From a virus, in IMG/VR virus record IMGVR_UViG_3300033064_008228, positions 1 to 32,828 of that record: 32,828 nucleotides of DNA; one strand, 5' to 3'. The position numbers were made by a program, and so were the translations under genes. Shown here piece by piece: positions 2,790-32,828 of the stretch. Each line of letters begins with the position of its first letter. The stretch's first letter is position 1. A model generated the notes under the pieces. The model was given only the letters and a program-made list of their open reading frames with translations, had not been told where the DNA came from and did not search any database.

Positions 2790-2817
2790 GGGGTACAAAT
2801 GCCCCTCTGCTGATCTA
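2790..2817 (-). repeat. Type A stem-loop repeat (tape measure end)
   Basis: Imperfect stem-loop GGGGTACAAATGCCCC with the downstream tag CTGATCTAG (plus-strand order). The TAG stop of the tape measure gene is read from the tag. Confidence 0.6.
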
Positions 2818-4224
2818 GTTGTTGGGGAGGTTCTGAAAGGCGTTTTCAAGGCGGTTTAATTTGGCTTTAATGCTGCTGATACTTTGGCCGAATTTCTCCA
2901 GCGGGATTGCATCGGCGGACGCCTCGGCATCTGCGAGCTGCTGCTGAAGCTGCTTAACATAGGCGGCCTGCTGATCCAGGCGTTTATCTTTAACTCGGGC
3001 CTGCTGTCGCGTTCCCTGATCGGCGTGTTTGAAATCTGCTGCGTCAAACTGCTCGGCTTTCCATTCTGAGTTTTTAACGCGGTTGGCCGCTTCGGACTTG
3101 AGACGGTCTATCTGATCGTCTATCAGCTGGCGGCGCTTTTCATCGTCCGCCTTCTGTTGATCCCTGACAATGGCTGATCCACTTGACTTTGTTTTTTCGG
3201 CTGTGGTCTGTTGCTGGACATTGGCGGTGCCTTTCTGAATGGCCGCCATGGCAGCTTCATAGACAATATTCCGCAGGGCTTCGTCGGCATCTTTACTAAC
3301 ATCGATCTGGGTGGCGATACCTTCATAGGCGGCCTTTCTGTTTTCTCCCAGTTTGTCAAGTTGTTCGGCTAGCTTCTTGTCTATCTTGTCAAGCATGCCA
3401 GGCATGAATGAACCAAGTGTCTTTTTGCTTTCTTTTTCCAGGCGGGCTAATTCTCGAGCGGCTGATTCTTCTTTATTAATTCGGGCAATATCAGATTCAT
3501 AGTCGACTATCTGGGCGGCTGCGTCGGCTTTAACGCCGGTATAATGTTCGCGGTCCGTTGTCCGTGCCTGATCCTGCTGGCGATAACGACGGTCTTCAGC
3601 TTCGGCCAATATTCCGGCGCGGGATTTTGCAGCTGCATTATCTGTGCGGCGGACGTGAAACTCATTTTCAGGGTCCAGGGCTTTCACTCTCTCAGTTTCA
3701 AGTTCCAGCTCTGCTAGTTTCTGAGCTGTGAGTGCATCGTCTTTTGACTGCTGGAAGTCGGAGAGTCGTTTAGCTGATTCATAATTCCGGTCTATCTCTT
3801 TGCGCTGCAAAGCATATTGCTCGGTCGTTGATTTAATACTGGATTCAATATTTTCAAAGCGAATGCTTTCAATCTGCTCTTTGAGTTTCTTTTTTGCTTC
3901 GGATACAGCATTGATGGCTTTATACCAGGCGACGGCACCAGCAATCAATAAACCGGCAGGACCGGCAAAGCGGGCAAGTTTCGGCATGAGCTGCAGCATG
4001 CCGCCCATGGAAGCTGTAAGCGGACCTATGCCTCCTGATGATGCTGCGGAAGCGGCTTGTCCGGCGGCGGCAAAACCCTGGGAGGCTCCGACGCTGGCTT
4101 TAGCTGCGGCGTTGCTGTTCTGGGTGACCTTGGCGGTGGATGTTGAGAGTTTGTCAACTTCTGTTGTGGCCTGGTCGGTGCCTTCTTTTTGAAACAGGGA
4201 TTTGATTTTTAGAATGATGTCCAT
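2815..4224 (-). CDS. Tape measure protein
   Basis: A 469-residue protein starting at the ATG at 4224 (MDIILKIKSLFQK); AAAGG lies 7 bases upstream inside the end of the previous gene, so the longer open frame (to 4341) is not used. Residues 1-80 are Ala/Ser/Gly-rich; a hydrophobic stretch (about 86-102, FAGPAGLLIAGAVAW) is followed by about 350 residues of charged heptad-like coiled coil rich in Ala, Gln, Lys and Glu. That layout, size and place in a tail operon fit a tail tape measure, which sets tail length and usually takes part in DNA passage across the inner membrane. It is short for the family, implying a short tail. Residues about 115-180 are strikingly similar to the protein at 21217-21543. 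The stop codon TAG belongs to an intergenic repeat (2790-2817). Confidence 0.75.
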   Translation of the reverse strand: MDIILKIKSLFQKEGTDQATTEVDKLSTSTAKVTQNSNAAAKASVGASQGFAAAGQAASAASSGGIGPLTASMGGMLQLMPKLARFAGPAGLLIAGAVAWYKAINAVSEAKKKLKEQIESIRFENIESSIKSTTEQYALQRKEIDRNYESAKRLSDFQQSKDDALTAQKLAELELETERVKALDPENEFHVRRTDNAAAKSRAGILAEAEDRRYRQQDQARTTDREHYTGVKADAAAQIVDYESDIARINKEESAARELARLEKESKKTLGSFMPGMLDKIDKKLAEQLDKLGENRKAAYEGIATQIDVSKDADEALRNIVYEAAMAAIQKGTANVQQQTTAEKTKSSGSAIVRDQQKADDEKRRQLIDDQIDRLKSEAANRVKNSEWKAEQFDAADFKHADQGTRQQARVKDKRLDQQAAYVKQLQQQLADAEASADAIPLEKFGQSISSIKAKLNRLENAFQNLPNN

Positions 4225-4226
4225 TA

Positions 4227-4427
4227 TTAACCTTTTATCTTTCTGCGACGCTGTGCCGTTGCCCGGTTGTTTCTTTGAGCAGCAACGCCTATCGGCTTTC
4301 CGTCGTTGCTGACAAATGCTATATCGTGAATAAGTCCACAATCGCAGCAGGCCCAGCGTGTAATTTTTCCGCTTTCAACTTCAAAGCCTTCACCATCATG
4401 ACGCTGTATATATTTTACTTTAGACAT
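4227..4427 (-). CDS. Small zinc-ribbon-like protein upstream of tape measure
   Basis: A 66-residue protein with a CCDCG motif (about residues 27-31) followed by LIHDIAF, and a strongly basic C-terminus (RNNRATAQRRRKIKG). One CxxC-like knuckle is visible; a second metal-binding pair is not, so full zinc binding is unproven. It sits one base after the gpG-like gene and two bases before the tape measure start, and its last codons carry the tape measure Shine-Dalgarno, so the two are probably translationally coupled. Siphophages usually have tail chaperones in this slot, but the sequence does not look like one. Function unknown. Confidence 0.6.
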   Translation of the reverse strand: MSKVKYIQRHDGEGFEVESGKITRWACCDCGLIHDIAFVSNDGKPIGVAAQRNNRATAQRRRKIKG

Positions 4428-4428
4428 G

Positions 4429-5160
4429 TTAAGACGCTTTCTGTGTTAGCAGTTCGATTGTTTTAGCGGCGCGCTGGTTGGCGCGGGTTTCAAGGGTTGG
4501 TTGGTCGGGCATGGCGTTGGGGTCGTGGCGGGTCTGGACTTTTGAGACAAGCCAGTAGTGCGGCTCTGAAAATCCTACGGTTGCATTTTTTGCGGTGGCG
4601 GCGACGCGCTGGCCTGCGTTACGGCCGCGCCGGGCTATGCGCTCGTTGTTGCGCTTGGCGACGAGGGCGGGCATCCACCCGCCATCGGGTGTCATGGCGA
4701 ATCCGAAGTCGAGGCCGCCGCCGGGGTCGAAGGTGCGCGGCATGCCTGCGTAGGCAGCGGCGCGGATGCTGGCGGGGATGGCAAGGTATTTTCGTCCGCC
4801 TTTGGGGACGATCAACGGCGGGTTTGGGTCAACCTTGTGGGCGAGGGCGGGGCTGTCGATCTCGATGGTCGCGGTATTGGCGGCGGTGTCGATGACGGGG
4901 GCTTTGATGGATTCGGCGACTGAGTTGCCATGGGAGCCTGACCAGAAGTAGGACTTTGGGAAGTCTTTGCCGAAGGCGGGAAAGCCCTGGTTATTGCGGG
5001 GTTCGGTTTCGCGGCGGGCGAAGTGCTCACGGGTGCCTACGATAACCTCCTGGGATGCGGCCTCAAGAACGGCGCGGTGGATGCGCGGGCCGTGCAGCTC
5101 TTCAAGGGCGGCGCGGGTTTCTTCGGTTCCCTGGATTTCTATGGTTGTTGAGGTGCTCAT
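4429..5160 (-). CDS. gpG-like virion morphogenesis / tail completion protein
   Basis: A 243-residue protein from the ATG at 5160 (MSTSTTIEIQ); a GTG at 5187 would add nine residues and neither start has a clear ribosome binding site. The N-terminus (an amphipathic strand, then a helix reading TRAALEELHGPRIHRAVLEA and a conserved-looking basic HFARRE segment) and the C-terminal KTIELLTQK helix fit the phage virion morphogenesis family (Mu gpG, P2 gpS), which finishes head-tail joining. The middle (RKYLAIPASIRAAAY) resembles the KYLAIP segment of those proteins. In Mu, G directly follows portal and F; here F-like and G-like genes lie far downstream next to the tape measure. Confidence 0.6.
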   Translation of the reverse strand: MSTSTTIEIQGTEETRAALEELHGPRIHRAVLEAASQEVIVGTREHFARRETEPRNNQGFPAFGKDFPKSYFWSGSHGNSVAESIKAPVIDTAANTATIEIDSPALAHKVDPNPPLIVPKGGRKYLAIPASIRAAAYAGMPRTFDPGGGLDFGFAMTPDGGWMPALVAKRNNERIARRGRNAGQRVAATAKNATVGFSEPHYWLVSKVQTRHDPNAMPDQPTLETRANQRAAKTIELLTQKAS

Positions 5161-5218
5161 GGTGTGGCCGGTTATTATTGCGACCACTCAGTGGTTGCAA
5201 TTTAGAGAGTAAAAGAAT

Positions 5219-6071: not shown

Positions 6072-6608
6072 GGCAGGGTCGGGTTTAGGGGTGAAGACGG
6101 CGCGGGCTTTGGTTGTGAGGCGGTGGAAGTAATAACCAAAGATGCGGACAAAAACGAAGTAGGTGTATTTGAAAAGGAATCCTGAAGCGGATAGCTGGGC
6201 AAGAAACCAGCGGTCGGCAATGTGCAGCACTTCGCGAACTGATATGCCCAGCACTGCTGCCAACTCTTCGGCGTGCTGATAGATATAGTCATGCGGGAGT
6301 GCGGCAGGCAGTGCCCGGCGGAAGTTAGGCGCAACGGAAACGGCAAAGAAGAAGGGTGCGGGAATCTCTAAGAACAGGGAGTGGATGCCGTCTGTCACTG
6401 AATGGGTGAGGTGGCCGGGGTTTGTGTCGGCGGGGTCGCCGATGCGGAGGGTTCCGACCGGCAAAGCGCGCATCAATGAGGCGGAAACGTTGCGCCATGA
6501 AAAGGTTACGTCAGCCGTGGTTACAAACTTGTCGGGAGCGCCTGCAGGTGCGCGGCGGTAGGGTAGCGGATCGGGGTAGTAGGTTGCTTTTTTGGGTTGC
6601 AGTTTCAT
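6069..6608 (-). CDS. DUF1353-like phage protein
   Basis: A 179-residue protein matching my recollection of DUF1353: a beta-rich N-terminal part, then HDYIYQH (about residues 106-112) in place of the family's HDyLY signature, then ADRWFLAQLSASG in place of the typical aDr.Fl.am...G helix, then an aromatic VRIFGYYFH segment matching the usual yyavrlfG end. DUF1353 proteins occur widely in phages, often near lysis or tail genes; their biochemical role is not established. It overlaps the exosortase-like gene by four bases (ATGA), so the two are translationally coupled. The TAG stop is part of the repeat at 6046-6071. Confidence 0.6.
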   Translation of the reverse strand: MKLQPKKATYYPDPLPYRRAPAGAPDKFVTTADVTFSWRNVSASLMRALPVGTLRIGDPADTNPGHLTHSVTDGIHSLFLEIPAPFFFAVSVAPNFRRALPAALPHDYIYQHAEELAAVLGISVREVLHIADRWFLAQLSASGFLFKYTYFVFVRIFGYYFHRLTTKARAVFTPKPDPA

Positions 6609-6958
6609 GATCTTGCTAACCTTTCAGATAGGCGGATGAGAATGTAGACGGATGGCAGGACGAACAGGTATCCTAAAATTGTATGGGCAATATGCCAGGC
6701 GTCGGCTGAAAGAGTGCCGAGGATTATCAGGGTGGCGACGCGGAGCTGGTTGAATAGGATGGAGAGGGCGGCTGCGGTGAGAATAAGCAGGCAGGCGCGG
6801 CGCGGAGGGTTACGGTTAAATAATGCCAGGATAACGGCCAGGGCAAGAAGGGCTTTGAGGGAGTTGATACCCGAGCAGGATTCAAGCACAGCGAACCGGC
6901 CCGCCGGGTCGAGCAGGCGGGCGGTTGCTGTTGTTAATGCTGTGAGCGGGTTTGTCAT
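6605..6958 (-). CDS. Minimal exosortase/archaeosortase-family membrane protein
   Basis: A 117-residue, very hydrophobic protein with about four membrane segments. It carries the three signature positions of exosortases (cysteine transpeptidase-like enzymes that process PEP-CTERM-type tails): Cys28 in ESCSGINSL (family consensus xCSGI/L), Arg73 in FNQLRVATL (consensus N..Rv) and His92 in HTILGYLF (consensus H...G). Full exosortases are about 280 residues with eight membrane segments; this one is essentially just the catalytic core. It lies between a caspase-like lipoprotein gene and a DUF1353-like gene in a phage late operon. None of the nearby exported proteins ends in a visible PEP-CTERM-like tail, so its substrate may be a host protein. 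No clear ribosome binding site is seen. Family call is strong from motifs; activity is inference. Confidence 0.8.
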   Translation of the reverse strand: MTNPLTALTTATARLLDPAGRFAVLESCSGINSLKALLALAVILALFNRNPPRRACLLILTAAALSILFNQLRVATLIILGTLSADAWHIAHTILGYLFVLPSVYILIRLSERLARS

Positions 6959-6996: not shown

Positions 6997-7845
6997 CTAG
7001 TAGAGGATTGGATCAAGGGCGAAGGATGGGCCGATCTCGGTTATGACGGGGACCTGATCGGGCGGCATTGCGGCGCGAATTCGGTCGCACCAGTGCTGAT
7101 AGGTTGATGAGATTGGTATGGCTTTGCGCATTACCCTGGAGAGGGTGCCGCCTTCCCTGGTCCCGAATGATACTTTGCCGTCATCGCATCCGCCTATATA
7201 GAGGAGGGAGCCTTCAAATGGCGGAGCCACGTCATAGGCAAATTCCCTGTGTTTTGATTGTCTGACTGCGGCGGCGTAGTCATGCGGGGATCGATACATG
7301 GTGCCGCTGTTGCAGGTGTCGAGGGCAAGGATAACGCGGACGCCTGGCGGGAGCTGACATAGCAAACGCCAGATGTCGTTATCAACTAAGGGGCCATCGG
7401 CGCAGCAGAAGTATTCGTCTTTGCCGTCAGGTTCATCCGGGTTGGGTCGCTGGCCTCCATGGCTGGAACCTTTGATATACAGCAGGTCACCGGCTTTAAG
7501 GTTGGCGCAGGCGAGATAGGCGCTGTCGATTATGTTCTGGCGTGTGGCCTGATCGTTAAGGAGCAGGTCAACTTTATCAAAGCCGATCGCCTGGAAGAGC
7601 TTCGCGTCCTGGGCGGCATCGGTATCGGCTCCCAGGCAATCGCCATAGACGCTGCCTTTATAAACGCCGACGCAGATGGCCACGCGGTAGATGTTGTCAT
7701 CCCGGTACATGGCGGCAATCTGGGCGGCGCTCAATGCCAGGTTGCCGAAGGTAGTTATCTGCTCCGGCGTGGGGTTGAACATTTCACAGCCGGTGAATGC
7801 GGCCATCGAGGCAGCAAGTAGAAGTGTAGCGATGTAGCGTTTCAT
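6997..7845 (-). CDS. Caspase-like (peptidase C14 / metacaspase) lipoprotein
   Basis: A 282-residue protein. Residues 1-20 form a lipoprotein-type signal (MKRYIATLLL..AAFTGC) with Cys20 as the likely lipidated residue; the lipobox FTGC is slightly unusual. The rest follows the caspase/metacaspase fold: strand AICVGVY (about 56-62), acidic loop GADTDAAQDAKLF, strand LLYIKGSSHGGQ with the catalytic His129, DEPDGKDEYFCCADGPLVDNDI, and VILALDTCNSGT with the nucleophile Cys178. Both dyad residues are present, so it is probably active. Metacaspases cut after basic residues; substrate here is unknown. The start is supported by AAAGGAA upstream and TAATG coupling to the previous gene. An exported, lipidated caspase homologue in a phage late operon is unusual. 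Confidence 0.85.
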   Translation of the reverse strand: MKRYIATLLLAASMAAFTGCEMFNPTPEQITTFGNLALSAAQIAAMYRDDNIYRVAICVGVYKGSVYGDCLGADTDAAQDAKLFQAIGFDKVDLLLNDQATRQNIIDSAYLACANLKAGDLLYIKGSSHGGQRPNPDEPDGKDEYFCCADGPLVDNDIWRLLCQLPPGVRVILALDTCNSGTMYRSPHDYAAAVRQSKHREFAYDVAPPFEGSLLYIGGCDDGKVSFGTREGGTLSRVMRKAIPISSTYQHWCDRIRAAMPPDQVPVITEIGPSFALDPILY

Positions 7846-20424: not shown

Positions 20425-20450
20425 GTAAATGGCAATGCATTGCCGTTTAC
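20425..20450. repeat. Palindrome copy 1 upstream of the late operon
   Basis: A 26-bp inverted repeat with ATGCAT at its centre and core TGGCAATGCATTGCC, with one mismatched pair. It ends 19 bases upstream of the first late gene start (20406). It is one of four related copies; probably a protein-binding site. Confidence 0.75.
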
Positions 20451-20639: not shown

Positions 20640-20662
20640 AAAATGGCAATGATTGCCATTTT
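20640..20662. repeat. Palindrome copy 2
   Basis: A 23-bp perfect inverted repeat (AAAATGGCAAT, G, ATTGCCATTTT). It shares the TGGCAAT half-site with the other copies but has a one-base centre where the others have GC, so the half-sites are one base closer. Confidence 0.75.
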
Positions 20663-20717: not shown

Positions 20718-20733
20718 TGGCAATGCATTGCCA
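20718..20733. repeat. Palindrome copy 3
   Basis: A 16-bp perfect inverted repeat TGGCAATGCATTGCCA, the shared core of the family. The left flank AAAA matches copy 2; the right flank diverges. Confidence 0.75.
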
Positions 20734-20857: not shown

Positions 20858-20882
20858 AAAAAAGGGCCTTTTAAAGGCCCTT
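20858..20882 (-). terminator. Intrinsic terminator of the lysogeny operon
   Basis: A 10-bp stem (AAGGGCCTTT/AAAGGCCCTT) around a single central base. On the minus strand the stem runs into six T residues, as expected for a rho-independent terminator of the leftward operon that ends at 20954. Confidence 0.7.
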
Positions 20883-20900: not shown

Positions 20901-20936
20901 GAAACGTAAATGGCAATGCATTGCCATTTACGTTTC
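20901..20936. repeat. Palindrome copy 4: perfect 36-bp inverted repeat
   Basis: All 18 base pairs match around the ATGCAT centre. Left arm GAAACGTAAATGGCAATG, right arm its exact complement. It lies between the last lysogeny-operon gene and its terminator. No T-run follows on either strand, so it is not an intrinsic terminator; a protein-binding site or cruciform is more likely. Confidence 0.85.
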
Positions 20937-20953: not shown

Positions 20954-21220
20954 TTAAAAAATACCCATCATTGAGAGAATAAGCCAGACGAAAACACCGG
21001 CGACAAGCACGGCTGGAATAGATGCCAGATATATTTTTATCATCAGGTTAACCCATTCTCTGAAAGGCAGGTCTATGCCGGTTATGGTTGTGCCTGTTTC
21101 ATGGGGAGATTTTAGCAGGTTGATGGGATGGCCGCAATGCGGGCACGTTGGCGCAAGCCGGGAAACACTGGCAGAGCATACGGGGCAATCGCTGAGCAGA
21201 TCAGAAAAGGGAGAACTCAT
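20954..21220 (-). CDS. Zinc-ribbon membrane protein of the lysogeny operon
   Basis: An 88-residue protein with an N-terminal zinc ribbon (CPVC, about 12-15, and CPHCG, about 26-30, with 10 residues between the pairs) and one C-terminal membrane segment (about 66-86, IPAVLVAGVFVWLILSMM). It is the third gene of the repressor operon; its ATG overlaps the previous stop as ATGA, so it should be made in lysogens along with the repressor. The layout (small cytoplasmic domain plus tail anchor) and lysogenic expression suggest superinfection exclusion or host signalling, but the family is not recognised. Confidence 0.65.
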   Translation of the reverse strand: MSSPFSDLLSDCPVCSASVSRLAPTCPHCGHPINLLKSPHETGTTITGIDLPFREWVNLMIKIYLASIPAVLVAGVFVWLILSMMGIF

Positions 21221-21543
21221 TTATGTAAACCTTCTTTCATTCTGGCTGCTTCTAGTTCCAGCTCTGCCAGGCGCAAAGCTGTTTCGGCATCGTCTAATGC
21301 CTGCTCATGTGCCAGCCTGGCCTTTTCCTGCTCATACTTCCTCTGTGTCTCTTTGCGTTCATCTGCATAATATTCGGTTGTTCGTTCAATGCTGCGGCTG
21401 ATATTGTCAATCCTGATTTTAGAAACCATATCCTGCCTGCTCCATTCCTTTTCCCGTTTGACCTCATTATAGATCAGAATGGCAATAACCGGAATTATGA
21501 TTATGGCAAAGATAACAGCAAAGGTTAGTTTATTATCATTCAT
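21217..21543 (-). CDS. Membrane-anchored coiled-coil protein similar to the phage's own tape measure
   Basis: A 108-residue protein: one N-terminal membrane segment (about 7-25, FAVIFAIIIIPVIAILIY) then a charged coiled coil. Residues about 42-102 align without gaps to about 121-181 of the tape measure protein (2815-4224), with 33 of 61 positions identical by hand count; shared pieces include LAELELE and the DDA-TA spacing. In both proteins the coiled coil follows a hydrophobic segment. It overlaps both neighbours by ATGA junctions and should be expressed with the repressor. Best guess: a superinfection-exclusion protein acting on incoming tape measure or on its membrane target. The alternative is a recent duplication without function. 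Confidence 0.75.
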   Translation of the reverse strand: MNDNKLTFAVIFAIIIIPVIAILIYNEVKREKEWSRQDMVSKIRIDNISRSIERTTEYYADERKETQRKYEQEKARLAHEQALDDAETALRLAELELEAARMKEGLHK

Positions 21544-22007
21544 GATGCTTTTCCCTTCTCGCTTTTATTGCGCCTGACCGAACCACCACCGGAAGCACCA
21601 GAGGCAAGGTTCGCAGGCCCTTCGTTTTTTGCCTGAAGCAGATCCAATGCCTGGCTAAGATTGCGCTGCGATGATTCAAGATTCTTTTCATAAGCCGTAA
21701 CCATATTGACCAGACGTCTTATTTCCTGGTCTTTAACATCGCACTGACGACAACCTACGGTTACATGTGCGGCTTGATCTTCTTTGACTTCAAGAGTGTT
21801 TTTATTAAATAACAAACCTGTTTCTTTTTCAAGTTCATTTAGTTTCTTTAACGGGTCAGGACCGAGGTTTCGCACCCCTTTTCTGACCGATGTTATAAAT
21901 GTACGGGTGACGCCGAGACGCTCGGCAAGTCCGTCCCAGTTGGTTTCCAGCTCTGTCATGACTGAAAAGAGCCTGATTTCAAGCTTCTTCAACGCATCTG
22001 TTTTCAT
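21540..22007 (-). CDS. Phage repressor (helix-turn-helix)
   Basis: A 155-residue protein from the ATG at 22007 (MKTDALKKLEIRL); the longer open frame to 22100 runs into the promoter region and is not used. An HTH of the Cro/cI (XRE) type covers about residues 14-52 (NWDGLAERLGVTRTFITSVRKG), followed by a coiled-coil-like segment (about 90-125) likely for dimerisation, with CRQC in between, and a Gly/Ser/Lys-rich end. It faces a small Cro/Ner-like gene across about 105 bases, the classical switch layout. It lacks the peptidase domain of LexA-type repressors. Confidence 0.75.
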   Translation of the reverse strand: MKTDALKKLEIRLFSVMTELETNWDGLAERLGVTRTFITSVRKGVRNLGPDPLKKLNELEKETGLLFNKNTLEVKEDQAAHVTVGCRQCDVKDQEIRRLVNMVTAYEKNLESSQRNLSQALDLLQAKNEGPANLASGASGGGSVRRNKSEKGKAS

Positions 22008-22112: not shown

Positions 22113-22283
22113 ATGACGAAAAAATCAATCAAAAAGAAAAAACGCGGACTACGCATAAAGGGCATAACTGCCGATGCTGCAGCGCTGGGAGTAACGCGGG
22201 AACATCTGTGGCGCGTGTTGAAAGGACTGCGCGAAAGCCCAGGTCTGATTAAGCGCTATAACAATCTACAGTCAATGAAATAG
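22113..22283 (+). CDS. Cro/Ner-like small DNA-binding protein
   Basis: A 56-residue basic protein (MTKKSIKKKKRGLRIK start) with one clear HTH: GITADAAALGVTREHLWRVLKG, then LRESPGLIKRYNNL. It is the first rightward gene, opposite the repressor, with AAAGG about ten bases before its ATG. Position and size fit a Ner- or Cro-type early regulator that shuts off the repressor and tunes early transcription; the LGVTREHLWRVLKG helix is the likely recognition region. The downstream gene starts 23 bases after its TAG. Confidence 0.75.
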   Translation: MTKKSIKKKKRGLRIKGITADAAALGVTREHLWRVLKGLRESPGLIKRYNNLQSMK

Positions 22284-31901: not shown

Positions 31902-32036
31902 AGAATGATAGAACATAAAAAGGGACTGACATCCCTCCTTAGATCGGTACGCCAATACCAACCACACATGCCATATGCTGCTCTATCAAGGGCAATCGTT
32001 AAAATATGGCGCAAACAATATCAAAAGGAGACAGTG

Positions 32037-32828
32037 ATGTCAGTTCCTTCTTTTTATCACAAAGTAAAACCAGTCATTACCCGCCCAGGTGGCAAGAGCC
32101 GTATGCTTAAACTTCTGCTCCCCATCATAAACCACATAGACCACAAAGTCTATTGTGAGCCATTCGCGGGAGGGGCCGCCGTCCTTCTTGCCAAACAACC
32201 TTCATATCATGAGATCATCAACGATATTGACGGCAATGTTATTAATCTATATCGTCAGATTAAACACCATAGAGGAGAGATGATAAAATCACTCAAATTG
32301 CTGCCTAGCAGCCGTTCTCTTTTCACTGAGCATCTGGACATTCTAAGCAGTAGACACTCGACAGAGATTCAAAAAGCTACAGCATTCGCATATTGTAACT
32401 TTCATTGCTTCGGTGCCGATAATTCCACATTCGGGATTCAACGCCTTGGGTTTCGGACAAACAGTTATCTTGTCAAAAAAGTAATAGCATTCAGCAAAAG
32501 GATAGACAGAGTGACAATTGAAAACGTTACCTGGCAACGGTGTATGGATTTATACGACTGCAAGGAGGCTCTTTTCTTTTGTGATCCCCCATACACATCT
32601 GGTAAAGTAGATGCTTATAATGCCTGGTCAATGGCTGATGTTCAAGAGTTGCGTGACCGGCTATCCACACTCAAAGGCCAGTGGATTGTCACGCTTAACG
32701 ACAGCCCCGATAATCGCGCTGTGTTCAATGGCTGCCACATTAGAGGCACAACCACGGCGGCTGCAATGCGCAAGCGCACACAGGGCCAGACACGCGATAG
32801 ATTCGGCGAGATCATTATCACGCCTTAA
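32037..32828 (+). CDS. D12-class DNA adenine N6-methyltransferase (Dam-like)
   Basis: A 263-residue enzyme from the ATG at 32037 (MSVPSFYHK), chosen because AAAGGAG lies just upstream; an in-frame ATG at 31905 would add 44 basic residues with a poor ribosome binding site. TRPGGKSRM (15-23) and EPFAGGAAVL (41-50) are the AdoMet-binding motifs, NDIDGNVIN follows, and DPPY (183-186) is the catalytic motif IV, in the order typical of D12/Dam enzymes. Methylation could protect phage DNA from restriction or regulate phage promoters. It is complete and ends at the last base of the window. Confidence 0.85.
   Translation: MSVPSFYHKVKPVITRPGGKSRMLKLLLPIINHIDHKVYCEPFAGGAAVLLAKQPSYHEIINDIDGNVINLYRQIKHHRGEMIKSLKLLPSSRSLFTEHLDILSSRHSTEIQKATAFAYCNFHCFGADNSTFGIQRLGFRTNSYLVKKVIAFSKRIDRVTIENVTWQRCMDLYDCKEALFFCDPPYTSGKVDAYNAWSMADVQELRDRLSTLKGQWIVTLNDSPDNRAVFNGCHIRGTTTAAAMRKRTQGQTRDRFGEIIITP

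Follow-up and report, generated by a model that had tools for sequence, protein, structure and literature searches.

Among the systems closest to the one described here, the moron-encoded exclusion protein gp15 of phage HK97 stops DNA injection, and escape from it occurs through swapping of the genes for the tail tube and the tape measure protein, or TMP (reviewed in PMC10883804). Ltp of Streptococcus phage TP-J34, the product of a lysogenic gene located near that for a CI-like repressor, targets the TMP at DNA injection (PMC3952083), while Tab of Pseudomonas phage JBD26, a Mu-like siphophage, is expressed from the prophage and has an effect and specificity which are linked to the TMP (PMC10884400). 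SNIPE, a DUF4041/GIY-YIG membrane nuclease, possesses an inner-membrane anchor and a cytoplasmic part and associates with the TMP during injection (PMC13190303). For JBD30, also of the Mu-like kind of siphophage, it has been proposed that the TMP serves as the membrane channel for the DNA (PMC11445458). The exclusion and defence proteins compared here act through the TMP yet do not resemble their own TMPs: HK97 gp15 scores 37 against its TMP, where shuffled sequences reach 44, and JBD26 gp31, which we take to be Tab, shows no relationship to the TMP of its phage. In the open literature searched we found no report of an exclusion protein derived from a TMP.

The window, that is, the whole stretch of DNA analysed here, is the complete IMG/VR virus record IMGVR_UViG_3300033064_008228 (32,828 bases). 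Behind its putative repressor gene lies an ORF, open from ATG to stop, which specifies a protein (hereafter the small protein) homologous to a segment of the putative TMP of the same phage (Table 1). We suggest, with a probability of roughly 45%, that this is a superinfection-exclusion protein expressed by the prophage and made from a duplicated piece of its own TMP. Slightly more tentative is the proposal that the duplicated unit of membrane segment plus helix has been turned into a lysogenic immunity protein which would act as a dominant negative or a decoy, and specifically on phages sharing the TMP or its entry partner.

Table 1. Features of the small-protein locus and of the putative TMP gene.
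Feature	Position	Strand	Basis or remark
Small protein ("moron")	21217..21543	-	108 aa; N-terminal membrane anchor and TMP-derived helix
Predicted transmembrane segment of small protein, residues 6-24	21472..21528	-	Hydropathy 3.19 over 19 aa
TMP-homologous block of small protein, residues 35-103	21235..21441	-	Alignment
Putative repressor	21540..22007	-	ATG start, ORF reaches 22100; weak HTH_3 match, E 0.0066
Divergent small Cro/Ner-like ORF	22113..22283	+	Position and sequence; similar ORF in G609 and G002
Zinc-ribbon protein with C-terminal membrane segment, third operon gene	20954..21220	-	PF13248, E 9.8e-5, below curated cut-off
Terminator-like hairpin, strongest of several, between operon and late genes	20862..20882	-	Consensus match only
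Putative TMP, 469 aa, source of the copy	2815..4224	-	Start ATG at 4224; synteny and composition
Matching block in TMP, residues 113-181	3682..3888	-	Alignment; inside predicted helix 89-183
TMP hydrophobic stretch before the block, residues 86-104	3913..3969	-	Hydropathy 1.34 over 19 aa; position conserved in relatives

Like HK97 gp15, the small protein is small and by its sequence has a single anchor at the N-terminus with a charged helix after it, and on hydropathy and helix prediction only it can be placed among the small membrane-anchored exclusion proteins of the gp15 kind. Unlike the small protein, gp15 has 62 residues, and its gene is a late one, next to that for the TMP. Tab differs in being soluble, in blocking tail assembly and in the position of its gene, which lies together with that for anti-Tab between the terminase genes; with its predicted membrane anchor and different gene context the small protein does not fit the Tab type. 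The lipoprotein of TP-J34, to which the first-pass annotation had pointed, does target the TMP but furnishes an analogy only, since this surface protein binds the TMP through its repeat domains (PMC3952083) and is not known to descend from one, whereas the small protein has a TMP-derived helix, lacks cysteine and therefore has no lipoprotein signal. SNIPE is a large bacterial nuclease and the small protein is without a nuclease domain; the N-terminal region of some SNIPE homologues, which is like the P22 tail needle, offers a distant parallel for a borrowed phage part. Nor, at its size and in a repressor operon, is the small protein a whole TMP, which is a long protein of the late tail operon.

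The genes of the window mark the phage as B3-like and transposable. They specify a Mu-type portal protein (PF06074, 1.5e-36), a Mu-like protease (PF10123), a transposase (phrog_310) with an AAA ATPase gene behind it, and a large terminase whose identity with the B3 (Pseudomonas phage) enzyme is 29%. The nearest terminases (70–75% identical) are encoded by two IMG/VR contigs, L003 and L004; that of L013, a contig of an Opitutia bacterium genome, is 74% identical, and further related terminases occur in Verrucomicrobia and Kiritimatiellae genomes. On this account the host probably belongs to the Verrucomicrobiota.

Synteny, size class and helix content led us to regard the product of the gene at 2815–4224 as the putative TMP. 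It is the only large all-helical late protein in the window and lies between a tail-morphogenesis gene (4429–5187) and a conserved tail gene (490–2445), a gene order which is kept in related phages. None of the family profile searches recognised it; it does not align with the TMPs of B3 or JBD26, and comparison of profiles for both families gave no match. Its structural model is poor (mean pLDDT 60.5), with a helix at residues 89–183 (pLDDT 76–91 in the second half) which begins inside the hydrophobic stretch and finishes at about the point corresponding to the end of the small protein. Directly upstream of the TMP gene is a small cysteine-containing ORF (4227–4427, minus strand). In B3 that position is taken by a Com-like regulator and a methyltransferase, whereas the D12 adenine methyltransferase (PF02086) of the window is encoded at the right end (31905–32828, plus strand).

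A local alignment of the small protein with the TMP scores 154 and covers TMP residues 105–181; it contains a gap-free block of 69 positions, 33 of them identical. Full shuffles of the small protein scored at most 70 against the TMP and heptad-preserving shuffles at most 75 (n=3000 for each), and 11 other proteins of the window, helical ones included, scored 49 or less. The first-pass annotation, working by hand, had given the identity count, the residue range and the hydrophobic segment in both copies correctly, and its reservation that the alignment might be no better than that of other coiled coils does not hold. When the TMP was used as query against the 245 small ORFs of the window the small protein was matched at 1.5e-12 and the next best at 0.99. 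A profile made from the TMPs of four other phages, the window phage being excluded, matched the window TMP at 1e-28 and the small protein at 2.8e-5, so that by profile match the latter carries the segment typical of the TMP family of these phages; training sequences and overlapping copies of these loci aside, no further ORF among those compared was matched. Over the block the DNA is 58% identical, and the same codon is used at 20 of the 33 shared residues (13.3 ± 2.7 expected), an excess which speaks for common descent rather than for convergence. At the level of sequence the homology is thus confirmed. What had been called a "mimic" is indeed homologous to the TMP, but, being descended from a segment of it, is better named a diverged copy. 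The TMP hydrophobic stretch is the weaker of the two (Table 1), and the anchors of the two proteins give no confident alignment with each other.

In relatives the hydrophobic stretch and the helix occur in register in the TMPs of L020 (an Opitutia genome), of two G238 prophages and of G286, and the TMP segment is also matched in G617 and its near-duplicate G608. Since TMPs across related Verrucomicrobiota phages thus have the segment, it is the small gene which is derived, and this distribution shows that copying went from the TMP to the small gene. When the segment was used for a maximum-likelihood tree, 98% of 200 bootstraps joined the small protein to the TMP of its own phage; the branch leading to the small protein is long, that to the TMP short. 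By this placement the small gene is copied from the TMP of the same lineage or a close one. The DNA identity, the long branch and the excess of identical codons together point to a copy which is fairly old and fast-diverging. The anchor may have had another source. One G238 prophage encodes, beside its zinc-ribbon gene, a small membrane protein whose anchor ends in LIYNELKR where the small protein has LIYNEVKR, a likeness of few residues whose score was reached by two of 2000 anchor-aware shuffles; tentatively, the small protein may be a fusion of the anchor of an older operon member with the TMP helix.

AlphaFold2, run on the single sequence, models the small protein as one helix from residue 2 to 106 (mean pLDDT 93). 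There are four K/R residues after the anchor as compared with one before it, and charge alone favours a cytoplasmic location for the helix. Searches with the small protein gave no match in Pfam and no relevant match in PADLOC, and phrog_4980, which is annotated as superinfection exclusion, matched it at E 0.03, no better than other anchor-plus-helix families. The weak PHROGs and PADLOC matches of the small protein were rejected, as they look like generic matches to an anchor plus coil.

The neighbouring gene is considered to encode a repressor because of its weak HTH match, the divergent Cro/Ner-like ORF and the presence of similar proteins at the corresponding position in L014, G610 and L004. 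Exact ATGA overlaps join the repressor, small-protein and zinc-ribbon genes, and terminator-like hairpins come after the third of them, which upholds the earlier assignment of the small gene to the repressor operon. Being translationally coupled to the repressor gene upstream of these hairpins, it is probably expressed, and its product made, in lysogens. In temperate phages, exclusion or conversion genes are expected in a slot of variable content which is expressed together with the repressor. In relatives this slot is occupied by a zinc-ribbon membrane protein (L004), by a zinc-ribbon protein together with a small membrane protein (G238), the zinc-ribbon proteins of both being counterparts of that of the window, by what appears by eye to be an HNH-like protein (L014), or by a coil with a C-terminal membrane segment (G610; L062:176–499, minus strand), the gene for which overlaps that of the putative repressor. 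The G610 coil shows no significant similarity to its own TMP. The corresponding slot of G609, next to its putative repressor gene, contains what looks by eye like a serine protease of the S49/SDH type (L060:10525–11421, plus strand). A 16-bp palindrome, TGGCAATGCATTGCCA, occurs in three near-identical copies (20430–20445, 20718–20733 and 20911–20926; 0.01 expected) in the region which separates the immunity operon from the late genes, with an imperfect fourth copy at 20640–20662; relatives carry, as judged by eye, other repeated palindromes at the same place.

No second phage with a small protein and matching TMP was found among 15 phages, some 600 Verrucomicrobiota genomes, and scans of IMG/VR and INPHARED. 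Small proteins of the 15 other phages, including HK97 gp15 and JBD26 gp31, matched their own TMPs at E 0.11 at best; not all of these records are complete, and some of the TMPs were picked by position and composition. Close relatives of the small protein were absent from IMG/VR, INPHARED and the sampled Verrucomicrobiota genomes, and two samples of the host phylum, which overlap and together comprise about 600 genomes, yielded TMPs only. An IMG/VR scan for the motif KDDAxxAxxLAxL returned 37 loci, none with a TMP-like protein or a homolog of the small protein, and IMG/VR scans with the hub and TMP alignments returned nothing. The degenerate pattern LIYNE(L/V)KR, run against 346 genomes, missed G238, which has the peptide, and is therefore uninformative. 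Matches in G605 and G006 were rejected as unrelated host proteins.

Four other explanations may be weighed against exclusion. The small protein might block tail assembly late in infection by a related phage, as a cytoplasmic fragment which poisons TMP oligomers or soaks up the tail-assembly chaperones. Its helix is TMP-derived, and Tab of the Mu-like JBD26 is a prophage-expressed protein whose effect is linked to the TMP (PMC10884400); but Tab is soluble where the small protein has a strong predicted membrane anchor, gp31 of JBD26 does not resemble its own TMP, and no partner gene resembling anti-Tab was identified, so that we consider this unlikely. A little less probable again is a role within the immunity operon, the coil serving as a membrane tether for either the repressor or the zinc-ribbon protein, with the TMP origin of its helix being incidental. 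The coupling of the three genes, the long helical tail of the putative repressor, the anchored coil at the same place in G610 and the resemblance of the anchor end to the G238 operon protein would all suit such a partner. It would not be expected, however, that the helix still agree with its own TMP at about half of the residues, nor that the small gene be absent from the matching operon of the close relative L004, which has both the repressor and zinc-ribbon genes.

A lysis protein, for example an i-spanin (Rz-like), would also have one N-terminal anchor and a long helix, and in B3 the repressor is followed on the same strand by two small ORFs and then the lipoprotein, holin, endolysin and Rz genes. 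We hold this to be improbable: the neighbours here are a repressor and a zinc-ribbon protein rather than a holin, endolysin or small lipoprotein, the charges flanking the anchor point to a helix in the cytoplasm, no spanin profile matches the small protein, and the homology to the TMP would be left unexplained. Equally improbable is a duplicate without a role and on its way to loss, as its occurrence in one phage record and its long branch might suggest, because at 58% DNA identity it is still open and has kept its anchor and exact ATGA junctions.

Superinfection exclusion would accommodate the homology far above shuffles, the match to the TMP profile, the placement in the tree and the fact that the segment is ancestral in TMPs. 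It would likewise suit a gene which is intact, has coupled starts within the repressor operon and is followed by a terminator-like hairpin, in a slot which in relatives holds other small membrane proteins, and by analogy it agrees with HK97 gp15, Ltp, SNIPE and Tab, all of which act through the TMP or on injection. Against it are that a single case is known, that the TMP was identified by synteny and the topology by charge alone, and that the small protein would also meet the TMP of its own phage at induction; no anti-protein comparable to anti-Tab was identified. The observation is firmer than when first made, and its interpretation is plausible and partly supported.

If the small protein does exclude, the repressor promoter would drive its gene in the lysogen and the product would sit in the inner membrane. 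During infection by a related phage, as its TMP is ejected to form the channel for DNA, either the resident helix would join the incoming TMP oligomer and spoil it, or it would already occupy the membrane partner which the TMP needs; in both cases the DNA of the incoming phage would not enter, and only phages whose TMP has a similar segment would be affected. The identities between the two proteins have their peak at close to 87 degrees per residue rather than at the value for an alpha-helix, and are not on one face of the helix. Neither an oligomer nor a decoy interface is therefore visible which would favour one of the two modes over the other. If exclusion is involved at all, what is new is a variant of TMP-directed exclusion built from the TMP itself. 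The fragment would then indicate which part of the TMP is active at the inner membrane, a point still to be settled for the DNA entry of long-tailed phages.

Two further genes of the late region may be mentioned. In the tail region a caspase-domain protein (Peptidase_C14, PF00656, 3e-9) with a lipoprotein-like N-terminus is encoded at 6997–7845 on the minus strand, and a short exosortase-like membrane protein (6605–6958, minus strand) matches the C-terminal part only of PF09721 (4.7e-18).
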